Source: Acidobacteriota bacterium (GTDB lineage: Bacteria > Acidobacteriota > Holophagae > Holophagales > Holophagaceae). From it: DNA of 64,000 nucleotides. Shown here piece after piece: positions 17,025 through 29,885 of the stretch. Each line of letters begins with the position of its first letter. The first letter of the stretch is position 1. The translations under genes and the position numbers were made by a program. The stretch lies in NCBI GenBank assembly GCA_021794095.1, contig JAJYRN010000007.1, positions 62,001 through 126,000 of the forward strand, read 5' to 3'. Under the pieces are notes generated by a model. That model did not search any database and was not told where the DNA came from. It was given only the letters and a program-made list of their open reading frames with translations.

Positions 17025-17378
17025 ATGCGTGGGTATGCGCCCATTCTGCTTTTGGTTCTGATCGCGGCCGTGCTTCCGGTGCTGGTCTGGAGTCTTTCGC
17101 GCCTTCTGCGCCCGAGGTTCCCGAGTGCCGCCAAGTACTCGGCCTATGAGTGCGGCATCACCGCCACCACCGAAGCCCGGGAGAAGTTCAGCGTCCGCTA
17201 CTACCTGGTGGCCGTGATGTTCCTCGTGTTCGACGTGGAGACCGTCTTCCTGATGCCCTGGGCCATCCAGATGAAGGAACTGGCAGCCTTTGGCCTCATC
17301 GAGATGGGCATCTTCCTGTTTCTTCTGCTGTTCGGCTACGGCTACATCTGGTCCAAGGGGGCCCTGACATGGGAATGA
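17025..17378 (+). CDS. nuoA: NADH-quinone oxidoreductase subunit A
   Basis: 117 residues with three membrane helices (about 5-25, 63-83, 90-110). It keeps the family signature [12 protein letters not shown] (about 36-47) and the acidic loop [12 protein letters not shown]. NuoA helps form the quinone tunnel mouth together with NuoH and NuoJ. It is the first gene of nuoABCDHIJKLMN. The ATG at 17025 has a GGAGG site 5 nt upstream. The end overlaps the start of nuoB by 10 bp. Confidence 0.96.
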
Positions 17379-17878
17379 ATCAACCCACCCAGGTCGAACA
17401 ATTCCTCATCACCACCAAGGTTGAGAAGGTCATCAACTGGGCGCGCGCCTCGAGCGTGTGGCCCATGACCTTCGGCTTGGCCTGCTGCGCCATCGAGATG
17501 ATGGCCGCTGGGGCCAGCCGCTTCGACTTCGACCGGTTCGGCGCCGGGATCTTCCGTGCCACGCCGCGCCAGAGCGACCTGATGATCGTGGCCGGCACCG
17601 TCACCTACAAGATGGCGCCCGTCATCAAGAAGCTCTATGACCAGATGCCCGAGCCCAAGTGGGTGATCGCCATGGGCTCCTGCGCCACCGCCGGTGGGCC
17701 CTTCGACTCGTACCACACCATCCAGGGCGTGGACAAAGTGATCCCCGTGGACATCTACATCCCCGGCTGCCCGCCCCGGCCCGAAAGCCTCATCTACGGC
17801 TTCCTGAAGCTGCAGGACAAGATCATGACCAGCAGCCTGGCGGACCGGTACAAGGACATCTTCGAGGAGGTCGGCTGA
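17369..17878 (+). CDS. nuoB: NADH-quinone oxidoreductase subunit B
   Basis: 169 residues from the ATG at 17369; a second ATG at 17375 is possible. It carries cluster N2, the last iron-sulfur centre before quinone. The ligands are the tandem cysteines in [10 protein letters not shown] and the cysteines of MGSCAT and PGCPPRPE. It sits at the membrane junction with NuoD, and all expected ligands are present. Confidence 0.97.
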
Positions 17879-18759
17879 TGTCGGAACCGATCGAACCCCA
17901 GGTTCCGGAGGGGGCTTCCGAAAGCCCTGTCGGCCCCTATGTGTACGACTACGCCGCCGCTCCGCAGCGCCAGATCGTCCCGCCCAAGACGGTGCCCCTG
18001 CCCAGCCTGAAGACCTACGAGGCCGAGGTGATCGCCCAGCAGGCGGCCGACGAGGCCAAGTGGAAGAAGATGCAGGCGGACTACGAAGTGGCGAAGGCCA
18101 AGGCCGAGGCGGAGGGCAAGGACGCCCCCAAGCCGCCCGTGAAGCCGGTGCCCCGCAAGGACGACAACGACATGAAGACGCCCTGGCCCCAGGCGGCCAA
18201 GGATCCCGATCTGCTCCACCTCCAGCGGCTGCTGGGCGAGCAGGTCGAGGAGATCTTCGAGCAGGCCGGCGAGCTGACCTGCCAGGTGCGGAAGGAAGCC
18301 CTGCACGAAGCCCTGCGGATCTGCCGGGAGGATGCGGATCTGAAATACGAGATGCTGGCCGACCAGACCGGCACGCACTACCCCGCCGCCAAGGAGTTCG
18401 CCTTCTCCCTGGTCTATCACCTGACCAGCATCAGCCGGCGGAAGCGGCTGCGCATCCGGATTCTGGTGCCCGAGGGCTTCGAACCGGAGAGCGCCTGCTC
18501 GCTCTATCCCAGCGCCAACTGGATGGAGCGGGAAACCTATGACATGCTCGGCATCCGGTTCAAGGACCATCCCGACATGACCCGCATCCTCTGCCCGGAG
18601 GACTGGGAAGCCTACCCGCTGCGCAAGGAATACCCGGTTGTGGGTCTCGGTCAGCGGGACATTGATTTCCGGGAGGACCGGGGCGGCGTCCTGATGCGGA
18701 TCGCCATGCAGAAGGCCGGCCAGATGGGCATCAACCTCAAGCAGCCGACGGCGGACTAG
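17878..18759 (+). CDS. nuoC: NADH-quinone oxidoreductase subunit C with long N-terminal extension
   Basis: 293 residues, well above the usual 150-220. The conserved NuoC domain starts near residue 108 (PDLLHLQRLLGEQVEEIF) and includes the signature WMERETYDMLGIRFKDHPD and the ILCPEDWEAYPLRK tail. The first 107 residues are a low-complexity Ala/Lys/Pro/Glu linker with a short N-terminal part (YVYDYAAAPQRQIVPPKTVP). The start overlaps nuoB by 1 nt (TGATG). NuoC packs against NuoD in the peripheral arm. The extension has no recognised domain and may occupy the surface left free by the absent NADH module. Confidence 0.93.
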   Translation: MSEPIEPQVPEGASESPVGPYVYDYAAAPQRQIVPPKTVPLPSLKTYEAEVIAQQAADEAKWKKMQADYEVAKAKAEAEGKDAPKPPVKPVPRKDDNDMKTPWPQAAKDPDLLHLQRLLGEQVEEIFEQAGELTCQVRKEALHEALRICREDADLKYEMLADQTGTHYPAAKEFAFSLVYHLTSISRRKRLRIRILVPEGFEPESACSLYPSANWMERETYDMLGIRFKDHPDMTRILCPEDWEAYPLRKEYPVVGLGQRDIDFREDRGGVLMRIAMQKAGQMGINLKQPTAD

Positions 18760-18765
18760 GAGCGG

Positions 18766-19869
18766 ATGGTGTTCAAGAGCGAGGAAATGGAAATCAACCT
18801 CGGGCCTCAGCACCCCTCCACCCATGGTGTGCTCCGGGTGAAGCTGCGGCTGGATGGCGAAACCGTGGTCAAGTGCACGCCGGTCATCGGCTATCTGCAC
18901 CGGGGCCTGGAGAAGATCTGCGAGAACAAGACCTACTTCCAGGGCCAGGTGTGGACGGACCGCATGGATTACGTCGCGGCCATCAGCAACAACCTGGGCT
19001 GGGTCGAGGGGGTGGAGAAACTCTTCGGCATCGAGACGCCGCGCCGCGCGCGCTACATCCGGACCATGCTCACGGAGATGAACCGGATCGCCTCCCACCT
19101 GCTGTGGCTGGCCACCCATGCCCTGGACATCGGGGCCATGACCGTCTTCCTCTATGCGTTCCGCGAGCGCGAACTGCTGCTGGATCTCTTCGAGGCCTTC
19201 TGCGGCGCCCGCCTCACCACCACGGCCTTCCGCATCGGCGGCCTCCGCGAAGACCTGCCTCCCGGCTTCGTGAAGCAGGCCCGGGCCTTCCAGGCGATCT
19301 TCCCCGAGCGCCTGGAGGAGTACGAAACCCTGCTCTCCGAGAACCGCATCTGGAAGAAGCGCACCGTGGGCGTGGCCCGCATCAATGCCGAGGACTGCAT
19401 CGCCCTGGGCGTCACGGGGCCCGTGCTCCGCGCCGCCGGTGTGCCCTACGACATCCGCAAGGCCTTCCCCAGCGCTGCCTACGCCGAGATGGACTTCGAG
19501 ATTCCCACCCGTCCCGAGGCGGACACCTACGCCCGGTACCTGGTGCGGCTCGCCGAGATGCGCCAGAGCCACCGCATCATCCAGCAGTGCCTGGACGGGC
19601 TGCCGGAGGGCCCGGTCATGGCCAAGATCCCCAAGATCCTCAAGTCCGAGGTGAACGAGGTCTACCACGCCATCGAGGCTCCCAAGGGCGAGCTGGGCTA
19701 CTACTTCGTAGGCGAGAAGGGTGGCGTCAACCCCTATCGCATGCATGTTCGGGCCCCCAGCTTCGTGAACCTCCAGGCCCTCCCCAAGATGATCGAAGGC
19801 CGCCTCCTGGCCGACGTGATTGCCGCCATCGGCACCCTCGACGTGGTGCTGGGCGAGATTGACCGCTGA
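18766..19869 (+). CDS. nuoD: NADH-quinone oxidoreductase subunit D
   Basis: 367 residues, the normal length for unfused NuoD (49-kDa subunit), related to the NiFe hydrogenase large subunit. It begins with NLGPQHPSTHGVLR, the loop holding the quinone-contacting histidine, and contains GYLHRGLEKI and the RSPS-like C-terminal stretch as RMHVRAPSFVNLQAL. The residues expected to bind quinone are present. It follows nuoC by 6 bp with an AGGAG site, and is followed directly by nuoH, where many operons have nuoEFG. Confidence 0.97.
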   Translation: MVFKSEEMEINLGPQHPSTHGVLRVKLRLDGETVVKCTPVIGYLHRGLEKICENKTYFQGQVWTDRMDYVAAISNNLGWVEGVEKLFGIETPRRARYIRTMLTEMNRIASHLLWLATHALDIGAMTVFLYAFRERELLLDLFEAFCGARLTTTAFRIGGLREDLPPGFVKQARAFQAIFPERLEEYETLLSENRIWKKRTVGVARINAEDCIALGVTGPVLRAAGVPYDIRKAFPSAAYAEMDFEIPTRPEADTYARYLVRLAEMRQSHRIIQQCLDGLPEGPVMAKIPKILKSEVNEVYHAIEAPKGELGYYFVGEKGGVNPYRMHVRAPSFVNLQALPKMIEGRLLADVIAAIGTLDVVLGEIDR

Positions 19870-19877
19870 GGACGCCC

Positions 19878-21038
19878 ATGCCGCCGCCGATGAACCTCCT
19901 CCAGACCATCGTCATGGGCCTGATCCAGATCGTGGCCGTGCTGATTGTCGTTTTCATCATGGTGCCCCTGCTGACCTTCGCTGAGCGCAAGGTGATCGGC
20001 TACGCGCAGGTGCGCCTGGGGGCGACCCGGACCGCCAGCGGAACCCGTGGGTTCACGGCTTCCCTCAACCGGGGGATGTGGGCCATGGGCAAGGTGCCGG
20101 TCCTTTCCTTCTTCCGTGGCCTGCCGGTCTTCGTCGCGGATGCCGTGAAGCTCATCACCAAGGAGGACATCATCCCGGCCAAGGCGGATCGTGCGGTCTT
20201 CACCCTGGCGCCCATCCTCTCCGTGGTGGCCGCTTTCGGCGTGTTTTCCGCCATCGCCTACTATCCCGGCGTGATGTTCTACATGCCGAAGAGCTGGCCG
20301 CTCATCGGCGGCCTGCCGTTCAACGGGGCCATCGCCGACGTGAACGTGGGTCTGCTCTTCATCCTGGGCCTGGCGTCGGTGGGGGTGTACGGCATCGTGC
20401 TGGGCGCCTGGGCCTCGAACTCCAAGTATCCGCTGCTCGGCGGCCTGCGTTCTGCGGCCCAGATCGTGAGCTACGAGGTGCCGCTCACCCTCAGCCTGCT
20501 GCCCGCCGTGATCCTGGCCGGCACCCTCAATTTCAAGGACATGTCGGTGATCCTGTCCACCGGCCAGGGCATGAGCCCGCTGGCGGTCATCCCCCTCTTC
20601 ATCGGCTTCTTCATCTACCTCACGTGCGGCTTCGCGGAGACCAACCGCGTGCCGTTCGACCTTCCCGAAGCCGAGACGGAATTGGTGGCGGGCTTCCACA
20701 CCGAGTACTCGGGCATGAAGTTCGGATTCTTCTACCTCGCCGAATACGCCAACATGATCGTGGTCTCCTGCCTCGCTACGGCCTTCTTCTTTGGCGGCTA
20801 CTACCTGCTCCCCTTCGGCCTCCAGCGGATCATTCCCGCCAGCGTCCCCTTCCTCGGCCATCCCAGCTTCCTCTTCTTCATGGCGAAGGTGAGCCTCCTG
20901 CTGTTCGTCTTCATCTGGGTGCGGGCCACGCTGCCGCGCTACCGGTACGACCAGCTCATGGACGTGGGCTGGAAGTACCTGATCCCTCTCTCGCTGGTGA
21001 ACCTCTTCATCGCGGCCGTGATCCGCTACGCGTTCTGA
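19878..21038 (+). CDS. nuoH: NADH-quinone oxidoreductase subunit H with an altered quinone-site loop
   Basis: 386 residues, slightly long. TM1 (about 8-32) is followed by FAERKVIGYAQVRLG. The usual GPNRVGP...GLLQP loop (about 13 residues up to ADAVKL) is replaced by about 38 residues (ATRTASGTRGF...GLPVFV, 49-86). The rest is ordinary: KLITKEDIIPAKAD, the ETNRVPFDLPEAETELVAGF quinone-site loop and RATLPRYRYDQLM. NuoH forms much of the quinone chamber and couples it to the proton pumps. The altered loop lies on the side facing NuoB and NuoD. Confidence 0.95.
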   Translation: MPPPMNLLQTIVMGLIQIVAVLIVVFIMVPLLTFAERKVIGYAQVRLGATRTASGTRGFTASLNRGMWAMGKVPVLSFFRGLPVFVADAVKLITKEDIIPAKADRAVFTLAPILSVVAAFGVFSAIAYYPGVMFYMPKSWPLIGGLPFNGAIADVNVGLLFILGLASVGVYGIVLGAWASNSKYPLLGGLRSAAQIVSYEVPLTLSLLPAVILAGTLNFKDMSVILSTGQGMSPLAVIPLFIGFFIYLTCGFAETNRVPFDLPEAETELVAGFHTEYSGMKFGFFYLAEYANMIVVSCLATAFFFGGYYLLPFGLQRIIPASVPFLGHPSFLFFMAKVSLLLFVFIWVRATLPRYRYDQLMDVGWKYLIPLSLVNLFIAAVIRYAF

Positions 21039-21048
21039 GGGAGGATCC

Positions 21049-21558
21049 GTGCGCCTGCTCAAGACTCTGATCCCCGGCGACATCGCGGCTGGTCTCGCGC
21101 TGACCGGCAAGTACTTCGGCAAAGTATTCTTCTCCGCCAACCGGAAGAAGGTCCGCGCCCACCTCAAGCACTTCACCCAGGAGTACCCCGAGATCCCCGT
21201 GCGGCTCGCGCCACGCTTCCGGGGCCGGCTCACCCTGCTCAAGGACGAGCAGGGCGAGATCAAGTGCGTGTGCTGCCTGGCCTGCGAGAAGATCTGCCCC
21301 ACCCAGGTCATCACCATCGAAAAGGGCAAGATGGAAGGGCGCAAGATGCCCTATCCCGTGCGCTACGACTTCGAGATGGAGCGCTGCATCTTCTGCGAAT
21401 TCTGCGTGGAAAGCTGTGGTTTCGACTCCATCATCCTGAACCACCAGTTCGAGCTCGCCGCCTACAACCGGGAGGACTTCTCCCTGGGCATGGAAGGCCT
21501 CGGCCAGAACATGTTCGCCCCATCGCCCGTCGGCAAGTACAGCGTGGCCGAGGACTGA
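21049..21558 (+). CDS. nuoI: NADH-quinone oxidoreductase subunit I, 2[4Fe-4S]
   Basis: 169 residues starting at GTG 21049 behind GGGAGG. It holds clusters N6a and N6b with ligands CVCCLACEKICP (about 74-85, one extra cysteine inside the first motif) and CIFCEFCVESCGF (about 110-122). The second motif ends Cys-Gly where Cys-Pro is usual. NuoI passes electrons to N2 in NuoB. With NuoEFG absent from the operon it is the outermost encoded iron-sulfur subunit, and so a plausible docking point for ferredoxin or another donor. Confidence 0.95.
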   Translation: MRLLKTLIPGDIAAGLALTGKYFGKVFFSANRKKVRAHLKHFTQEYPEIPVRLAPRFRGRLTLLKDEQGEIKCVCCLACEKICPTQVITIEKGKMEGRKMPYPVRYDFEMERCIFCEFCVESCGFDSIILNHQFELAAYNREDFSLGMEGLGQNMFAPSPVGKYSVAED

Positions 21559-21592
21559 ACCACCCCCATTCCGCGCACCCGAAGGACATCCC

Positions 21593-22144
21593 ATGGAACA
21601 TCAACTCGAATCGCTCGGCCGGAACCTGTTCGCGGTCTTCGGGCTCCTGGCCCTGGCCGGGGCCGCCTTCATGGTGGTCTCCAAGCGCGCTGTGCACAGC
21701 GTCCTGGCTTTCCTCTTCACCATGCTCTGCGTGGCCGGCTGCTACCTTTCCATGGACGCCGAATTCCTTGGGGTGGCGCAGATCCTGGTCTATGCGGGCG
21801 GCATCGTGGTGCTGTTCCTCTTCGTCGTCATGCTGGTCGAGCTGACGAAATACAAGGAGAAGGACATCTTCCACACCCAGTCGAGGGCTGCCGCGGTGGC
21901 TGTGATCGCGGGTGTCGTGGCCTTCGCCGGGGTGTTCAAGCACGCGTTCTTCGGCCCGGCCTCGCCGGAGGCGCTGGTGTTGCGGCCTGAGTTGGCCCAG
22001 GGCCTGGATGTGGCCCATCAGAATGCGCAAGCCATCGCCCGTGGGCTTTTCGCAGACTACCTGCTGCCCTTCGAAATTCTGAGCGTGATCCTGCTGGTGG
22101 CCCTGGTGGGAGCCGTGGTCCTGGCTAAGACGGAGCGGGTGTGA
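21593..22144 (+). CDS. nuoJ: NADH-quinone oxidoreductase subunit J
   Basis: 183 residues with five predicted membrane helices. It contains the family region DAEFLGVAQILVYAGGIVVL (about 57-76), including the pi-bulge helix that moves during catalysis. A hydrophilic stretch between about 85 and 150 precedes the last helix (LLPFEILSVILLVALVGAVV). The start follows nuoI by 34 bp. The stop overlaps the nuoK ATG by 1 nt. Confidence 0.95.
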   Translation: MEHQLESLGRNLFAVFGLLALAGAAFMVVSKRAVHSVLAFLFTMLCVAGCYLSMDAEFLGVAQILVYAGGIVVLFLFVVMLVELTKYKEKDIFHTQSRAAAVAVIAGVVAFAGVFKHAFFGPASPEALVLRPELAQGLDVAHQNAQAIARGLFADYLLPFEILSVILLVALVGAVVLAKTERV

Positions 22145-22446
22145 TGATCAGCCTGAACGCAGTTCTCCTCATCTCCTTCGCCCTGTTCTCCATTGGCATT
22201 GCGGGTGTGCTCATCCGGCGGAATGCCCTGGTGATCCTCATGTGCGTCGAGCTCATGCTCAATGCCGCCAATCTGAATTTCATCGCCTTCGCGCGCCACA
22301 GCGGATCCGCTGCCGGGCAGGCCTTCGCCCTGCTGGTGATGGGTTTCGCCGCCGCGGAAGTGGCTGTGGGCCTCGCGCTGGTGGTGGCCCTCTACCGCCG
22401 GCGGGACACCGTCCAGGTGGATGACCTCAACCTGCTGAAGGGATGA
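22144..22446 (+). CDS. nuoK: NADH-quinone oxidoreductase subunit K
   Basis: 100 residues, the usual size, with three membrane helices. It has the conserved glutamates in MCVELMLNAANLNFIAFAR (about 36) and near 72 (AAAEVAVGLAL) that carry protons in the MrpC-like unit. I use the ATG at 22144, which overlaps the nuoJ stop; a GTG one codon earlier is also possible. Confidence 0.95.
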   Translation: MISLNAVLLISFALFSIGIAGVLIRRNALVILMCVELMLNAANLNFIAFARHSGSAAGQAFALLVMGFAAAEVAVGLALVVALYRRRDTVQVDDLNLLKG

Positions 22447-24737
22447 CCACGACCATGAGCCTGGAACCTTCCGCCGTGACCGCCGCCACCCATTCGGGCA
22501 GCCTCCTCTGGCTGATCCCCTTCCTGCCCTTCTTCGGCTTCCTGCTGAATGGCCTGACGGGCCGGAAGCTGCGCAGTACCAAGGTGGTGGATGCCATCGC
22601 CCTGGGCAGCGTCGGGATCTCCTTCCTCCTGACCCTCTTCCATTTCGCCCAACTCATCGGCCTGCCCGCCGATAGCCGTTCCATCCATCAGACCCTCTGG
22701 ACCTGGTTCGATGTGGGCGGCGCCCATGTGCTGGGCGGCCTCACCACCTTCAAGATTGCCTGGGCGTACAAATTCGATGCGCTGAGCGCCTGCATGGCCC
22801 TGTTGGTGACGGGCGCTGGCTTCCTCATCCACCTTTTCAGCACCGGCTACATGGCGGAGGAGCGCAACGACGGGCGCTACTACCGCTTCATGGCCTACAT
22901 GAACCTGTTCGTGTTCAGCATGCTGAACCTGGTGCTGGGCGCCAACATCCTGATGATGTTCCTGGGCTGGGAAGGGGTGGGCCTCTGCTCCTACCTGCTC
23001 ATCGGCTTCTACTTCGAGAAGGAGTTCGCGGCGGTTGCGGGCAAGAAGGCCTTTGTCACCAACCGCATCGGCGATTTCGGCTTCATGATCGGGTTCTTCC
23101 TGATCCTCATGGTCTTCGGCAGCCTCGACTACGACACGCTCATGGGCTCCGTGCGCGGAATCATGGCGCTGCCCTCCATCACCCTGTTCCACCACACGGC
23201 CAGTCCCACCTGGTGGTTCAACCTCATCGGCTGCTGCCTCTTCGTGGGTGCCATGGGCAAGTCGGCTCAGATTCCCCTGTATGTCTGGCTGCCCGATGCC
23301 ATGGCGGGCCCCACCCCGGTCTCCGCGCTGATCCACGCCGCGACCATGGTGACCAGCGGCCTCTACATGATCACCCGGCTGAATTTCATCTACATCAATG
23401 CTCCGGTGGCGCTCTCGGTGGTGCTGCTCTTCGGCTCCCTCACGGCCTTTGTGGCCGCGACCATGGGCCTGGCCCAGTACGACATCAAGAAAGTCCTGGC
23501 CTACTCCACCGTGAGCCAGTTGGGCTACATGTTCATGGGCATGGGCGCCGGAGCGTTCGCCTCGGGCATGTTCCACGTCTTCACCCACGCCTTCTTCAAG
23601 GCCAGCCTCTTCCTCGGATCCGGCGCCGTCATCGCGGCCTGCCACCATGAGCAGGACATGCGGAACATGGGCGGCCTGCGCAAGCTCATGCCCATCACCT
23701 CGCTCGCCATGATCCTGGCCACCTTCGCCATCGCGGGCATCTTCCCGTTCTCGGGGTTCTTCTCCAAGGACGAAATCCTCTGGCAGGTGTTCAACGGGTG
23801 GTATCACCACGGCTTGTATAACGGCCCAGCGCTGAACCTCGTGGCCTGGATCCTGGGCATGCTGGGCGCCTTCTTCACGGCCTTCTACATGACCCGCCTC
23901 ATCGCCATGACCTTCTACGGCGACTACCGCGGCGCGGGGAACGATCCCTACGGATTGAGCGTGCCATCCGCGGCCCACGCCCATGACGATCATGGCCATG
24001 ATGACGACCACGCGCATGGGGCTCACGGGCACGACAGCCATGGTGCCCAGGCTCATCATGGGCATGGCCATGCTCCCACTGAGGTCTCCTGGCGGATGTG
24101 GCTGCCGGTGCTCATCCTCGCGTGCCTGGCGACGGTGGGCGGCTTCCTGAACTACCCCGAGAGTCTCCACCGCATCCTGCCCATCGTGCCCGCAGAGCTG
24201 TTCACCAAGTGGATCGAGCCGCTGCTCTACCAGGTGGCGCCCGTCGTCCATGTGGAACATGCCCCTCCGGCCATCGAGTACGGGCTCATGCTGTGGGCCA
24301 CCCTTGTCTGGGCCCCCAGCGCCATGATCCTGGCCTGGTGGATCTACAAGGTGGATCCCAGCTGGAGCCGGGCGAAGGCCTTCGTGGCGCGCTTCCCCAA
24401 CCTCTACCGCTGGGTGAACGCCAAGTACTACGTGGACGAGTTCTACGAGGCGGCCCTCATCGGCCCCACCAAGCGCTTCTCTGCCCAGCTCTGGAGCTTC
24501 GACACCTGGGTGGTGGATGGCATGGTCAACGGCGCGGCCCGCTTCACCGTGCTCTGGGCCGACAGCATGCACTGGGTGGACCAGAAGATCGTGGATGGCC
24601 TGGTCAATGGCGTGGCGTGGCTGATCCAGCAGACCAGCCTGGTGTTCCGCCGTCTGCAGAGCGGCCGGTTCCAGCACTACGCCTTCGTGATGTTCCTCGG
24701 TTTCCTCGTCTTCGCATTCTGGAAATTCCTGGCCTGA
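22443..24737 (+). CDS. nuoL: NADH-quinone oxidoreductase subunit L with His/Asp-rich insert
   Basis: 764 residues, longer than the usual 610-680. Antiporter-like pump subunit with the conserved LGWEGVGLCSYLLIGFYF, GKSAQIPLYVWLPDAMAGPT and KVLAYSTVSQLGYM segments and the long C-terminal lateral helix (about 690-764). Between pump helices, residues about 508-545 form a loop of His, Asp, Gly and Ala (HAHDDHGHDDDHAHGAHGHD), a typical metal-chelating run. The start overlaps nuoK by 4 bp. The insert is probably a surface loop; a role in zinc or nickel buffering is speculation. Confidence 0.95.
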   Translation: MTTTMSLEPSAVTAATHSGSLLWLIPFLPFFGFLLNGLTGRKLRSTKVVDAIALGSVGISFLLTLFHFAQLIGLPADSRSIHQTLWTWFDVGGAHVLGGLTTFKIAWAYKFDALSACMALLVTGAGFLIHLFSTGYMAEERNDGRYYRFMAYMNLFVFSMLNLVLGANILMMFLGWEGVGLCSYLLIGFYFEKEFAAVAGKKAFVTNRIGDFGFMIGFFLILMVFGSLDYDTLMGSVRGIMALPSITLFHHTASPTWWFNLIGCCLFVGAMGKSAQIPLYVWLPDAMAGPTPVSALIHAATMVTSGLYMITRLNFIYINAPVALSVVLLFGSLTAFVAATMGLAQYDIKKVLAYSTVSQLGYMFMGMGAGAFASGMFHVFTHAFFKASLFLGSGAVIAACHHEQDMRNMGGLRKLMPITSLAMILATFAIAGIFPFSGFFSKDEILWQVFNGWYHHGLYNGPALNLVAWILGMLGAFFTAFYMTRLIAMTFYGDYRGAGNDPYGLSVPSAAHAHDDHGHDDDHAHGAHGHDSHGAQAHHGHGHAPTEVSWRMWLPVLILACLATVGGFLNYPESLHRILPIVPAELFTKWIEPLLYQVAPVVHVEHAPPAIEYGLMLWATLVWAPSAMILAWWIYKVDPSWSRAKAFVARFPNLYRWVNAKYYVDEFYEAALIGPTKRFSAQLWSFDTWVVDGMVNGAARFTVLWADSMHWVDQKIVDGLVNGVAWLIQQTSLVFRRLQSGRFQHYAFVMFLGFLVFAFWKFLA

Positions 24738-24765
24738 GCCCTACGCCCTTCTGGTTGGAGTCCCC

Positions 24766-26391
24766 ATGTTCACCGCAAACACGACACTGATGCTGGTGGC
24801 GACCTTCTTGCCCTTCCTGGGCGCGCTGGTCCTGCTTCTGGTGCCCAAGGGCCAGCGCAAGGTCTTCGAATACGGCTCCCTGGCCGTGATGATCGTCAGC
24901 TTCCTGCTGAGCGTCCCGTTCTGGTTCGGCTATGACCGCGCCAGCGATGCGGTCCAGTGGTTCCATGCCTGGACCTGGATTCCGTCCCTCGGCGTGAAGT
25001 TCGCCGTGGGCATGGATGGCATCAGCCTGCTGCTCTGGCTGTTGACCACCTTCATCGGGCCCATCGCCATCGCCTGTTCCTTCAGTGCCATCCAGGAGCG
25101 CCACAAGGAGTACTACCTCTGGATGCTGGTGCTCCAGACGGCCATGCTCGGCGTCTTCATCACCCAGGACATGTTCCTCTTCTACCTGTTCTGGGAAGTG
25201 ATGCTGGTGCCGATGTACTTCCTCATCGCCATCTGGGGCGGACCGCAGAGGCTCTACGCCGCCATCAAGCTCTTCCTATACACCCTGGCCGGTTCGGTGC
25301 TCATGCTGGTGGCCATCCTGGCCATCTACTTCCTGCAACACAAGACGACCGGCGTGTATGACTTCTCGCTGGCCAGCTTCCAGGCCATGGCGCCCATCAT
25401 CGCCCAGCAGTCCAAGACCTTCCAGATCCTCATGGCCCTGGCCTTCTTCATCGGCTTCGCCATCAAGGTGCCGATGTTCCCCTTCCACACCTGGCTTCCG
25501 GATGCCCACGTGCAGGCGCCGACCGCCGGTTCCGTCATCCTGGCCGCCATCCTCCTGAAGATGGGCACCTACGGCTTCGTGCGCTTCCTGCTGCCCATCC
25601 TGCCCGGCGCCACCAAGGAGCTGATGCCCTACTTCCTCACGCTGGCCCTCATCGGCATCATCTATGGCGCGCTGGTGGCCATGATCCAGAAGGACATGAA
25701 GAAGCTGGTGGCCTACTCCTCCGTGAGCCACCTCGGCATGTGCATGCTCGGCCTGTTCGCCCTGAACCCCTACGGCATCAAGGGCGGCCTGCTCCAGATG
25801 ATCAACCACGGCATTTCCACGAGCGGACTCTTCCTCGCGGTGGGCATCGTCTATGAGCGGCGACACACCCGCATGATCGCGGATTTCGGCGGCCTCTCGA
25901 AGAGCATGCCCGTCTACGCCACCATCTTCATGATCATGACCATGAGCAGCCTGGGCCTGCCGCTGCTGAACGGGTTCATCGGCGAAGGCGTCATCCTCAT
26001 GGGGGCCTTCCAGGCTTTCCCCTGGGCCGCCGTGGTGGCCACGCTGGGCATCATCCTCGGCGCCGCCTACCTGCTGTGGATGTATCAGCGCGTCATGTTC
26101 GGACCCATCACCCCCGTCAACGAGAAGATGGAGGATCTGAACCTCCGCGAGGTGCTCTACTTCGCGCCTCTGGTCATCGTCGCCTTCTGGATCGGCATGT
26201 ATCCCAAGCCGATCATGGATGTCATGGACGCTCCGGTCCGGAAGCTGGTCACCCAGGTGAACCCCGACTTCTACAAGGCTGAGTCGCTGGCGGCTCAGCA
26301 GGCCGCAGCCGCCCGGGTGGGCATGCGCGGGATGGAAGCGCCCGAAGCCCAAGAAACGCCTCTCGCAATGACCCACGGGGGAGGCCACTGA
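24766..26391 (+). CDS. nuoM: NADH-quinone oxidoreductase subunit M
   Basis: 541 residues with about 14 membrane helices. It is the second antiporter-like proton pump of the membrane arm. The signature includes FWEVMLVPMYFLIAIWGG (about 144-161), KVPMFPFHTWLPDAHVQAPT and LVAYSSVSHLGMCMLGLF with the pump lysines. The last 25 residues are a non-conserved tail (MRGMEAPEAQETPLAMTHGG). The stop overlaps the nuoN ATG by 1 nt. Confidence 0.96.
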   Translation: MFTANTTLMLVATFLPFLGALVLLLVPKGQRKVFEYGSLAVMIVSFLLSVPFWFGYDRASDAVQWFHAWTWIPSLGVKFAVGMDGISLLLWLLTTFIGPIAIACSFSAIQERHKEYYLWMLVLQTAMLGVFITQDMFLFYLFWEVMLVPMYFLIAIWGGPQRLYAAIKLFLYTLAGSVLMLVAILAIYFLQHKTTGVYDFSLASFQAMAPIIAQQSKTFQILMALAFFIGFAIKVPMFPFHTWLPDAHVQAPTAGSVILAAILLKMGTYGFVRFLLPILPGATKELMPYFLTLALIGIIYGALVAMIQKDMKKLVAYSSVSHLGMCMLGLFALNPYGIKGGLLQMINHGISTSGLFLAVGIVYERRHTRMIADFGGLSKSMPVYATIFMIMTMSSLGLPLLNGFIGEGVILMGAFQAFPWAAVVATLGIILGAAYLLWMYQRVMFGPITPVNEKMEDLNLREVLYFAPLVIVAFWIGMYPKPIMDVMDAPVRKLVTQVNPDFYKAESLAAQQAAAARVGMRGMEAPEAQETPLAMTHGGGH

Positions 26392-27857
26392 TGACCGGCT
26401 TCGCGCAGGGGCTTCTGGATGCGCTCCTTCAGGATGCGCATCTGATCGTGCCCCAACTGTTCCTGATCACTGTGGCCACCCTCATGCTCTGGCCCGGCGA
26501 CCTGTTCGTGAGCCGGACCGAGAAACACCGGTGGGCGTCCGTCACCCTCGTCGTGCTGGGCGTCACCGCCTGGCTGGTGGCGCGGGTGGACAATGGCCTC
26601 GGCTTTGGCCGCATGTTCCAGATGGATGGGCTCACCCGCGGCTTCCAGCTGCTCTGCATCCTGGGCGCCGCAGGCGCCGTGGCCCTGAGCCAGCGGGTGC
26701 TGAACGGCCTCAAGCAGCAGACCGTGGAGTACTACGCCCTGATCTTGTTTTCCCTGGCCGGGATGCTTTTCCTGTGTGGAGCGTCCGACCTCATCTCCGT
26801 CTATTTCAGCCTTGAGCTGATGGCGATCTCCATCTACATCCTGGTGGCCTACCTCCGGGACTGGAAGACCAGTGTGGAGGCCGGCCTCAAGTATTTCCTT
26901 CTGGGCGCCTTCTCCAGCGGCATCCTCGTCTACGGCATCAGCCTTCTCTACGGAGCCGCAGGCGGAACCACCACCAATCTGGCGGATCTCGGACAGGCTC
27001 TGGCGCTGGTGCCGAAAGCGGATTCCCTCCTGGTTTTCGGTGGGGTCCTGATGGTGCTGGTGGGGATGTCCTTCAAGGTGGCTGCGGTGCCCTTCCACAT
27101 GTGGTCGCCGGACGCCTACGAGGGCGCGCCCACGCCCATCACTGCCTTCATGGCCACGGCGCCCAAGGCTGCGGCCCTGGCGGCCTTCCTGCGCGTATTC
27201 GGCACCGGCTTCCACAGCCTGTTCACCATCTGGGTGCTGCCGCTCTCGTATATCGCCGCTGCCAGCATGATCCTCGGCAATGTGGCGGCGGTCCGCCAGG
27301 TGAGCATGAAGCGCCTGCTGGCCTACTCCAGCATCGCCCATGTGGGCTACATGCTGTTGGGCGTCCTTTCGGCCGATCCGGTAGCCGGGGCCCAGGCTGT
27401 GTGGCTCTACATGGCCATCTACGTGGTCATGAACTTCGGCGCCTTCGCGGTGGTGATCTACCTCCAGGGCCAGGGCGAGGGCGAGCGCATCGAGGATTTC
27501 CGGGGCCTGGGCCGCAAGCACCCCGTCCTGGGCTTCGCGATGATGATATTCCTGCTCAGCCTCGCGGGCATCCCGCCGCTGCTGGGGTTCTTCGGCAAGT
27601 TCTACCTGTTCAAGCTCGCCATCGAGCAAGGCCATGTCACCCTCACGGTGATCGCGCTCCTCACCAGTGCCATCAGCGCCTACTACTACCTGGGTGTGGT
27701 CGCCCAAATGTATTTCAAGGAGCCCACCGAGGGCGAGGCTCCAGCCCTGGGTGGCCTTCCCGCCTTCATCGTGGGTGTGGCCTGTTTCCTGATTCTGGTG
27801 GGCACGGCGTTCGGCCCCTGGCTGCTGGATTGGGCGGGCAAGGTCGCGCTGGGTTGA
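26391..27857 (+). CDS. nuoN: NADH-quinone oxidoreductase subunit N
   Basis: 488 residues with about 14 membrane helices, the third antiporter-like subunit and last gene of the operon. The conserved blocks are YFSLELMAISIYILVAYLRD (about 140), FKVAAVPFHMWSPDAYEGAP (about 226) and LLAYSSIAHVGYMLLGVL (about 309). Its stop codon lies within hairpin repeat R2, and an intrinsic terminator follows 105 bp later. Confidence 0.96.
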   Translation: MTGFAQGLLDALLQDAHLIVPQLFLITVATLMLWPGDLFVSRTEKHRWASVTLVVLGVTAWLVARVDNGLGFGRMFQMDGLTRGFQLLCILGAAGAVALSQRVLNGLKQQTVEYYALILFSLAGMLFLCGASDLISVYFSLELMAISIYILVAYLRDWKTSVEAGLKYFLLGAFSSGILVYGISLLYGAAGGTTTNLADLGQALALVPKADSLLVFGGVLMVLVGMSFKVAAVPFHMWSPDAYEGAPTPITAFMATAPKAAALAAFLRVFGTGFHSLFTIWVLPLSYIAAASMILGNVAAVRQVSMKRLLAYSSIAHVGYMLLGVLSADPVAGAQAVWLYMAIYVVMNFGAFAVVIYLQGQGEGERIEDFRGLGRKHPVLGFAMMIFLLSLAGIPPLLGFFGKFYLFKLAIEQGHVTLTVIALLTSAISAYYYLGVVAQMYFKEPTEGEAPALGGLPAFIVGVACFLILVGTAFGPWLLDWAGKVALG

Positions 27858-28007: not shown

Positions 28008-28295
28008 ATGATCTTCAGGCGACGAGGCAGGGCAGGGGGTCCCGGGGACCGGAGCCTCTGGGGCGACCTCGTCTCTCTGGGCCTGATCTTTCCCATCAGC
28101 ATCACCCTGGGCTTTTTTCTGGGACGGTGGATCGGAGCCCAGTTCGGCCATGGGCAGGGCGGCGGCTTGGTCGGTTTGTGCTGGGGCATCGCGACGGCCT
28201 TCTGGGAACTCTACAAGGTCGCCCAGCGGGTGGTGCGCTGGGACGCCCAGGAAACGCGCCGCATCGAGAAGGACCGGGATTCCCATGAGCCCTGA
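28008..28295 (+). CDS. AtpZ/AtpI-family small membrane protein
   Basis: 95 residues with two hydrophobic helices (about 21-41 and 50-70) joined by a short GHGQGGG turn, and basic termini: the AtpZ/AtpQ layout found in front of F0 genes. These proteins form Mg/Ca channels or help assemble the c-ring with AtpI. The end overlaps the next gene by 11 bp, so the two are coupled. Subfamily is uncertain because these proteins are short and divergent. Confidence 0.75.
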   Translation: MIFRRRGRAGGPGDRSLWGDLVSLGLIFPISITLGFFLGRWIGAQFGHGQGGGLVGLCWGIATAFWELYKVAQRVVRWDAQETRRIEKDRDSHEP

Positions 28296-28674
28296 TGGCC
28301 GGCACCACCTCCACTGGGCCACCCGGTTCCAGGTTGGCCTGTTGTTGCTGGGCCTCTTCCTCTGGGGCGGGTTGCGTTCCTGGGGGGCGGCGCTGGCCTT
28401 TCTGGTGGGAGGACTCACCAGTCTCGCCTACTGGGGACTCCACTGGCTCATCACGGCCCGGATGCTGACCCCTTCGGTGCGGTTGCGTTGGGTGTACGGC
28501 GTGCTGTCCCTTGGCAAACTGGCGTTGATCATCGTGGTTTTACGTGTGATGATAGGCAGGTTTCCAGCGGAAACCCTGCCACTGGTGACGGGTCTGCTTC
28601 TCTTTGTGGCGGGCATCCTGTTGGAGGCCCTTCGGCTCGTCCTCCGCGCCACTGCGTCCTTCCCCCCTGATTAG
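28285..28674 (+). CDS. AtpI-like ATP synthase accessory protein
   Basis: 129 residues with four membrane helices (about 17-32, 36-57, 72-90, 97-118), the topology of ATP synthase subunit I. It starts at ATG 28285 inside the end of the AtpZ-like gene and precedes atpB by 13 bp. AtpI family members help assemble the c-ring. Sequence conservation in the family is low, so the call leans on length, topology and place. Confidence 0.7.
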   Translation: MSPDGRHHLHWATRFQVGLLLLGLFLWGGLRSWGAALAFLVGGLTSLAYWGLHWLITARMLTPSVRLRWVYGVLSLGKLALIIVVLRVMIGRFPAETLPLVTGLLLFVAGILLEALRLVLRATASFPPD

Positions 28675-28687
28675 AGGCGTCCCCAAG

Positions 28688-29428
28688 ATGGAACATCACC
28701 CATCGATGCTTTCCCAGTGGCTGACCCTGGTCCTCCACCTGACCCGGCACGCCTGGCCCGGCTTCGCCCATGGCGAAGCCCTGTCCTTCCTGGAACGGTA
28801 TGACAACCTCCTGAACGCCACCCTGGCCGCCCTTCTGGCCATGCTGATCACGGGGCTCGTGCGGCGCGGCCTGACGCGGGTGCCAGGCCCCCTCCAGCAG
28901 ATGGCGGAGTCCATCGTGGGTGGCCTGCGCGACCTCACCGTGGACAGCATTCCCCATCACGGCGAGCGTTACCTCCCCTTCATTGGCACCATCACCCTCT
29001 TCGTCTTCTTCAACAACATCTTCGGCCTGATTCCCGGGCTCAGCCCGGCCACCAGCACCTGGAGCGTGACCCTGGCGGCTGCACTGGTGGTGTTCGCCTA
29101 CTACAATTTCCACGGCATGCGGGAGCACGGCATCGTCAAGTACTGGTCCCATTTCGCCGGACCGCTGCCCTGGTACACCTTCATGTGGATCCTGCTGCTG
29201 CCGCTGGAACTGCTGGGACTGTTTTCCCGCATCCTCAGCCACTCCCTGCGTCTCTTTGGCAACATCGCCGGTGAGCACGTCGTGGCTGGCATTTTCTTCG
29301 CCCTGATGCCGCTCCTGCTGCCGATCCCCATGATGGTGCTGGGCCTCTTCTTCGGGCTGGTCCAGACCTTCGTGTTCGCCCTGCTCACGATCATCTACCT
29401 CAGCGGGGCGGTCTCCCACGAGCATTGA
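28688..29428 (+). CDS. atpB: ATP synthase F0 subunit a
   Basis: 246 residues with about six membrane helices. It carries the proton half-channel helix [20 protein letters not shown] (about 181-200) with the essential arginine, followed by [37 protein letters not shown] near 107 is also typical. It starts at ATG 28688. Subunit b, delta and the F1 genes are not downstream, so the ATP synthase genes are split between loci. Confidence 0.95.
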
Positions 29429-29435
29429 TGCCGTC

Positions 29436-29502
29436 CGGGGGGTGCCCGCTCGCGGGCAAGGCCCTCCCGGGACCCCCCGCGTGTCATCCCGGCGGAGCCG
29501 GG
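29436..29502 (+). promoter_or_regulatory. Hairpins in the atpB-atpE intergenic region
   Basis: An outer stem CGGGGGGT/ACCCCCCG (29436-29443 with 29472-29479) encloses TGCCCGC-TC-GCGGGCA (29443-29458). A third hairpin, CCCGGC-GGA-GCCGGG, is at 29488-29502. There is no T run, so these are more likely RNA-stability or processing signals than a terminator. Subunit c is needed in many copies per complex, and such structures often raise its share of the message. Confidence 0.4.
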
Positions 29503-29582
29503 CCTCCGCGCCATCCCAATCGGTTCTACCCTCACCCGCCCTCAGGATTCCGAACCCCAAGGGCACCTCAAGGAGCACTCCC

Positions 29583-29885
29583 ATGAAGAAGTTCCTCACC
29601 ACCGCCTTCCTCTTCACCATGGCCGTCGCGGCCTTCGCCCAGGGCGTGCCCGCGGCGGCTGCCGGCAACGGCATTTTCGATGGCCGCTTCCTGGCCCACC
29701 TCTCCCTCGCCATCGCGGCCGCCGGCTGCGGTCTCGGCCAGGGCAAGGCCGTGGCCACCGCCTGCGAGGGCGTGGCGCGCAATCCCCAGGCGGGCGGCAA
29801 GATCATGGTCACCATGATCATCGGCCTGGCCATGATCGAGGCCCTGGTGATCTACGTGCTCGTGGCCGCGTTCGCCATCAAGTAG
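29583..29885 (+). CDS. atpE: ATP synthase F0 subunit c
   Basis: 100 residues from ATG 29583. Residues 1-20 ([20 protein letters not shown]) look like a signal peptide and are extra relative to the usual 70-80-residue subunit c. The two-helix hairpin follows, with [20 protein letters not shown], the polar loop ARNPQAG and the ion-binding Glu in [14 protein letters not shown]. The residue after that Glu is Ala, and the Gln/Ser-Thr signature of sodium-type rings is not seen, so proton coupling is likely. A processed N-terminus is inference. Confidence 0.93.

Follow-up and report, generated by a model that had tools for sequence, protein, structure and literature searches.

Expansion of the TM1-AH1 loop of NuoH together with a lengthened NuoI segment in the NuoEFG-less complex I of Holophagaceae

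The window analysed here, a 64,000-nucleotide stretch of DNA, belongs to a draft genome of 2.99 Mb; among named relatives, Geothrix and other Holophagaceae are the closest. It contains eleven complex I genes, nuoABCDHIJKLMN, together in one run on the + strand (17025..27857). No nuoE, nuoF or nuoG is present in this cluster. Genes of the E/F/G type all lie outside it, and the locus has the gene set of the 11-subunit complex I-like class and not that of a 14-subunit complex I with E, F and G in the same operon. Use of ferredoxin or another non-NADH electron donor is a feature expected of the 11-subunit class. NuoC (17878-18759) carries an N-terminal extension of about 100 residues in which Pro, Ala and Lys are abundant, the 30-kDa domain starting only at residue 136 of 293; shorter NuoC leaders of similar bias occur in other acidobacterial EFG-less clusters. 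Directly after the nuo cluster (28008-29885) lie F0 ATP synthase genes, comprising an ATPase_gene1-type gene, an a-subunit gene and a c-subunit-like ORF, the last named from a reading of its sequence.

A second complex I is encoded in the same genome, in at least three separate places. E and F accompany its nuoABCD genes at C16:312-319 kb (E/F at C16:316-319 kb); its nuoHIJKLMN genes, next to a gene resembling glutaminyl-tRNA synthetase, are at C16:171-179 kb; and a NuoG-type match is at C15:55 kb. Another contig carries an apparent NAD-linked [NiFe] hydrogenase cluster (C8:183-190 kb, L118) with a 622-aa ORF containing a NuoF-type domain and a HoxU-like protein.

The nuoH gene of the window (19878..21038, + strand) is an open in-frame ORF of 386 aa, and its product matches the PF00146 (NADHdh) profile with 338.6 bits against a cut-off of 27. 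After YAQVRLG the protein reads ATRTASGTRGFTASLNRGMWAMGKVPVLSFFRGLPVFV, a stretch of 38 residues, and continues with ADAVKL of amphipathic helix 1 (AH1). Loop length was measured as the number of residues between RLG and the AD of AH1, which is 13 in canonical NuoH; the window segment corresponds to residues 49-86 (20022..20135, + strand). The loop of the second NuoH differs (GPNRAALFGRIRIIGLAQLL, 19 residues by the same measure). The net gain of 25 residues is located between R51 and G81, with an inserted part proper of 29 residues versus 4 elsewhere (residues 52-80; 20031..20117, + strand). The initial annotation, which had described a quinone-site loop 25 residues longer than usual, was thus correct in size, as confirmed in 45 distinct carriers, and in placement, the loop being the one that joins TM1 to AH1 at the quinone entrance. 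Its further statement that the GPNR motif is lost holds for P and N, but G and R are kept: the site reads GATR in the window (residues 48-51; 20019..20030, + strand) and G(A/S)TR in carriers, with one GYTR. G48, T50 and R51 are invariant in carriers, and over an alignment of 80 sequences from carriers and non-carriers G48 never varies, while the conservation of R51 is 90% or more. GPTR is found in ordinary NuoH of SAR202 and related Chloroflexota and GPMR in that of the sister family and Vicinamibacterales, so that the N of GPNR was never fixed, the motif is typical of NuoH rather than defining, and the unusual step is the replacement of P by A or S. The subunit looks functional, as had been supposed, since the E-channel and other core positions (E36, R37, R46, E200, E254, R257, D261, E266, E268 and E276 in window numbering) are invariant over the 80 sequences.

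The 38-residue loop was found in 29 of 29 inspected loci of the genus (L005-L033), in all 38 carrier loci from named records, and in six loci from six further genera of the family, one each. Its length is identical in 45 distinct carrier sequences, a recurrence far above chance. A pair of frameshifts, raised initially as a possible source of the apparent insert, or another sequencing or assembly error, is rejected and has a negligible probability, because the frame is open and the same length recurs in distinct sequences from isolates and MAGs.

When 297 genomes of the phylum were searched with a profile of the segment, full-length matches (at least 109 bits) numbered 27, all in one family (f1) and made up of 21 in the genus of the window and one in each of six other genera. 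All other matches reached at most about 30 bits, and 85 more genomes matched weakly, nearly all in the AH1 half. A stretch in genome G119, with 24 bits and two stops, was taken as a chance match. The order of the match list, in which 20 of the 185 non-matching genomes are named, suggests that no member of family f1 lacks the insert. Relatives' contigs were also scanned with two peptide patterns, one of them inside the insert; among the best 80 of 159 relatives the carriers are L036-L073, and the insert is absent from L074-L115 (L079 has no readable loop). Full-length NuoH of the window type is present in 32 of 36 genomes of the same genus. Three of the exceptions (G011, G026 and G033) are 71-77% complete, and the fourth (G030), at 96% completeness, is spread over 530 contigs and has just a C-terminal piece of NuoH. 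A literature search, with subscription papers mostly outside its coverage, gave among the papers listed no report of this insert or of Geothrix or Holophaga complex I.

In a tree of 66 NuoH representatives chosen by hand, calculated with the loop columns removed, the carriers form a single clade (100/100) on a stem of 0.83. Their sister is a family of the same class (f2) with a loop of 13 residues and GPMRVGP (98/93). The best explanation is a single origin of the insert on the stem of the family, followed by its retention. One sequence titled Deltaproteobacteria (L071) is almost identical to the NuoH of a Holophaga bin (L072) and is grouped beside it in the tree; it probably comes from a mislabelled or contaminated bin. 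The insert is a real and conserved remodelling, specific to the family, of a loop that is normally short and does not vary in length.

Eleven positions over residues 48-83 are invariant in the 45 carriers (G48, T50, R51, A53, N64, W68, G71, P74, R80, G81 and P83), of which A53, N64, W68, G71, P74 and R80 belong to the insert proper. Asp and Glu are absent from 12 of 12 printed inserts, and the net charge is +3 to +5. The pN/pS of insert residues 52-80 is 0.52 (TM1, 0.55; TM2, 0.49; AH1 stretch, 0.36), with a pS that is high and may be saturated. The insert is constrained like the TM helices and not more, and purifying selection stronger than that is unsupported. These values bear on the possibility that the insert is a lineage-specific ornament, grown by chance on the family's stem and tolerated at the surface with no specific role at the entrance. 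A pN/pS equal to that of ordinary TM segments is consistent with such an origin, as are the smaller expansions of the same loop in other lineages and the long carrier stem, which suggests generally fast change. The exact length kept in seven genera, the invariance of N64, W68, G71, P74 and R80, and a matching change of NuoI in independent lineages argue against it, and we consider an ornament unlikely, though quite conceivable.

AlphaFold2 (AF2) was run on the isolated NuoH and NuoI chains, whose models carry no inter-subunit contacts. NuoH was predicted with the complex I fold (mean pLDDT 75, pTM 0.79), including TM1, AH1 and the later helices, and the top Foldseek matches of the model are chain H of complex I, e.g. 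8e9g_H and 4hea_H (TMq 0.74 each). The insert was predicted as a helix at residues 59-69 and a turn at 76-79, with pLDDT of about 55-65. The moment of this helix was not significant in 12 sequences (permutation p 0.08-0.27). The NuoI model (mean pLDDT 66, pTM 0.47) has a short helix at residues 32-38, within its own extra stretch and of modest confidence.

Two functional links had been proposed for the insert, to the lack of NuoEFG and to another quinone. All 45 judgeable carrier clusters have nuoD next to nuoH and no E/F (a forty-sixth locus, L061, was left out because its contig starts too late), and the insert was seen in no complex with E/F, including the ordinary 14-subunit, EFG-bearing complexes whose possession of it had been named as counter-evidence. 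The expected co-occurrence with EFG loss therefore holds among carriers, but of the 64 non-carrier loci 42, three of them from the sister family, likewise have nuoD next to nuoH, no E/F, and, unlike the window NuoH, no insert. The remaining non-carrier loci have E/F between D and H (11), no D upstream (9) or another order (2). The insert was consequently gained after EFG had been lost, or independently of that loss, which is rejected as a sufficient cause. Adaptation to the loss of the NADH module, or to the docking of another donor such as ferredoxin, is thus very unlikely. The loop is at the membrane end of the complex, far from where the N-module attaches. An adaptation to a different quinone would accord with a loop placed at the entrance, but is highly improbable. 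The same genomes hold a second complex I with another loop that would share the quinone pool, and the predominant quinone reported for Acidobacteriota, at the level of the phylum, is MK-8, in five new strains and in 'many known type strains' (PMC13362970).

The change in NuoH has a counterpart in NuoI (nuoI, 21049..21558, + strand), which was compared over the segment between an invariant Thr (T19), close to where the N-terminal helix ends, and the Tyr of the QYPE-type motif (Y46). This segment has 26 residues in the window and 12-13 in most canonical complexes, the extra residues being about 26-39 (about 21124-21165, + strand). The comparison comprised 122 NuoH-NuoI pairs, after 16 rows were set aside (in 15 no NuoI could be read in the locus, and in L049 it was broken) and duplicates were dropped (L116, L117, L139, L146-L155, L162, L181 and L184). 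Where the NuoH loop is 13-14 residues long, the NuoI segment has 12-13 residues in 41 of 53 pairs, 15 in 11 and 18 in one; at a NuoH loop of 18-19 it has 15-28 (24/24), and in carriers, with a loop of 38, it has 23 or 26 (45/45). The Spearman correlation of the two lengths, 0.93, is inflated by relatedness and overstates the evidence, because there are only three clear independent expansions. Each of these has a sister that is short in both subunits: in Holophagaceae the NuoI segment is 23 or 26 versus 12 in the sister family, in the second complex of Holophagae 19 versus 12 (L126, L188 and L190), and in Marinimicrobia/FCB 15 versus 12 (L110). A possible fourth expansion (L131; NuoH loop 18, NuoI segment 28) is on a long branch of uncertain place. 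NuoI is lengthened alone, at a NuoH loop of 13, in 11 Chloroflexota loci (15 residues) and in L132 (18 residues). The lengthening of the NuoI segment together with the NuoH loop is new here.

Changes in a third subunit were found in NuoB (nuoB, 17375..17878, + strand), where position 25 (17447-17449) is Ala in 39 of 39 carriers and Lys in 26 of 38 non-carriers. Further carrier-only substitutions are E109, E117 and G124 in NuoI and F34 in NuoH. The second cluster motif of NuoI (residues 117-124; 21397-21420) reads CIFCEFCVESCG; nearly all carriers have Glu117 instead of Gly and Gly124 instead of Pro or Asn, changes which may shift a cluster potential.

The reading we favour, and to which we give an even chance, is that the family-specific loop expansion acts with NuoI as a brace or lid in the EFG-less complex I of Holophagaceae. 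The added NuoH residues would comprise a short helix of basic and aromatic character and, after it, a hydrophobic stretch kinked by Pro, and would lie next to the quinone entrance, at the membrane surface on its cytoplasmic face. In this position they would pack against two partners, the N-terminal region of NuoB and the NuoI segment, which is both lengthened and basic. The packed segments would serve as a built-in brace or lid, steadying the bottleneck at TM1/AH1 as well as the junction of the two arms. Electron transfer would otherwise be ordinary, and so would proton pumping. This role as brace or lid draws on the identical length and eleven invariant positions in 45 carriers, a pN/pS like that of TM1 and TM2, the joint lengthening of NuoH and NuoI in three sister contrasts, the single carrier clade and the carrier-specific change in NuoB. 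Against it stand the low confidence of the insert in the isolated-chain AF2 model, a helix that is not significantly amphipathic, the ability of NuoI to lengthen alone, and a constraint no greater than that of TM helices.

The proposed brace or lid would occupy a place that other lineages fill with accessory subunits. In the available parts of the papers cited, the quinone entrance is described as framed by TM1, AH1 and TM6, with a bottleneck alike in 23 compared structures, and the softest opening mode includes motion of the TM1-AH1 loop (PMC8799541). NDUFA9 overhangs the tunnel opening, and NDUFS8 (NuoI) has an N-terminal amphipathic helix at the membrane by ND1 (PMC8762328), while a lipid-rich cleft formed by ND1, NDUFS8 and NDUFA12 is mentioned for Paracoccus, and mycobacteria have MSMEG_2064 in place of NDUFA9 (PMC11522691). 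By analogy with MSMEG_2064, the insert could be the place where a small accessory subunit, so far unrecognised, docks or binds in the complex of Holophagaceae. The basic, aromatic surface motif and the lineage-specific accessory subunits described near this corner in the accessible text (PMC11522691) would fit, but the nuo cluster contains no extra gene, and this explanation appears rather improbable. In a wider interpretation, which is tentative and on balance doubtful, the NuoH insert and the NuoI segment are a core-encoded gate over the mouth of the quinone tunnel, their lengths co-evolve and tune quinone access across bacteria, and Holophagaceae present the extreme form. For the question of how quinone gets through the narrow entrance of complex I, a tripled TM1-AH1 loop with a matched change in NuoI would offer a ready-made variant for testing loop control of quinone access or of the joining of the arms. 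Geothrix includes cultured isolates, and the protein is therefore within reach.

Among known systems, the window NuoH shares with the NuoH/Nqo8/ND1 family (PF00146) the full-length family match, the E-channel and the core motifs, and differs from it in the TM1-AH1 loop, where the fixed-length GPNR(V)GP loop of 13 residues is replaced by 38 residues with G(A/S)TR. The second NuoH of Holophagaceae and the sister family (C16; L122, L163-L180) also has a lengthened loop (18-19 residues) and a NuoI segment of 19, but it keeps GPNR, gains only five or six residues of other sequence, and has a separate origin in the tree. In Marinimicrobia/FCB (L074, L108 and L111) the NuoH loop has 19 residues and the NuoI segment 15; this loop is unrelated in sequence to the insert and likewise of separate origin. 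The TM2-TM3 loop on the outer side of the window NuoH (about 20253-20327) is longer than in most aligned relatives by some nine or more residues, reminiscent of the TMH2-3 loop of Thermus thermophilus Nqo8, which the available part of PMC8762328 gives as 10 residues longer than the eukaryotic one. That Nqo8 loop, as a bacterial NuoH loop doing the job of eukaryotic accessory subunits, parallels the role proposed for the Holophagaceae insert, but it is a different loop, on the opposite side of the membrane.
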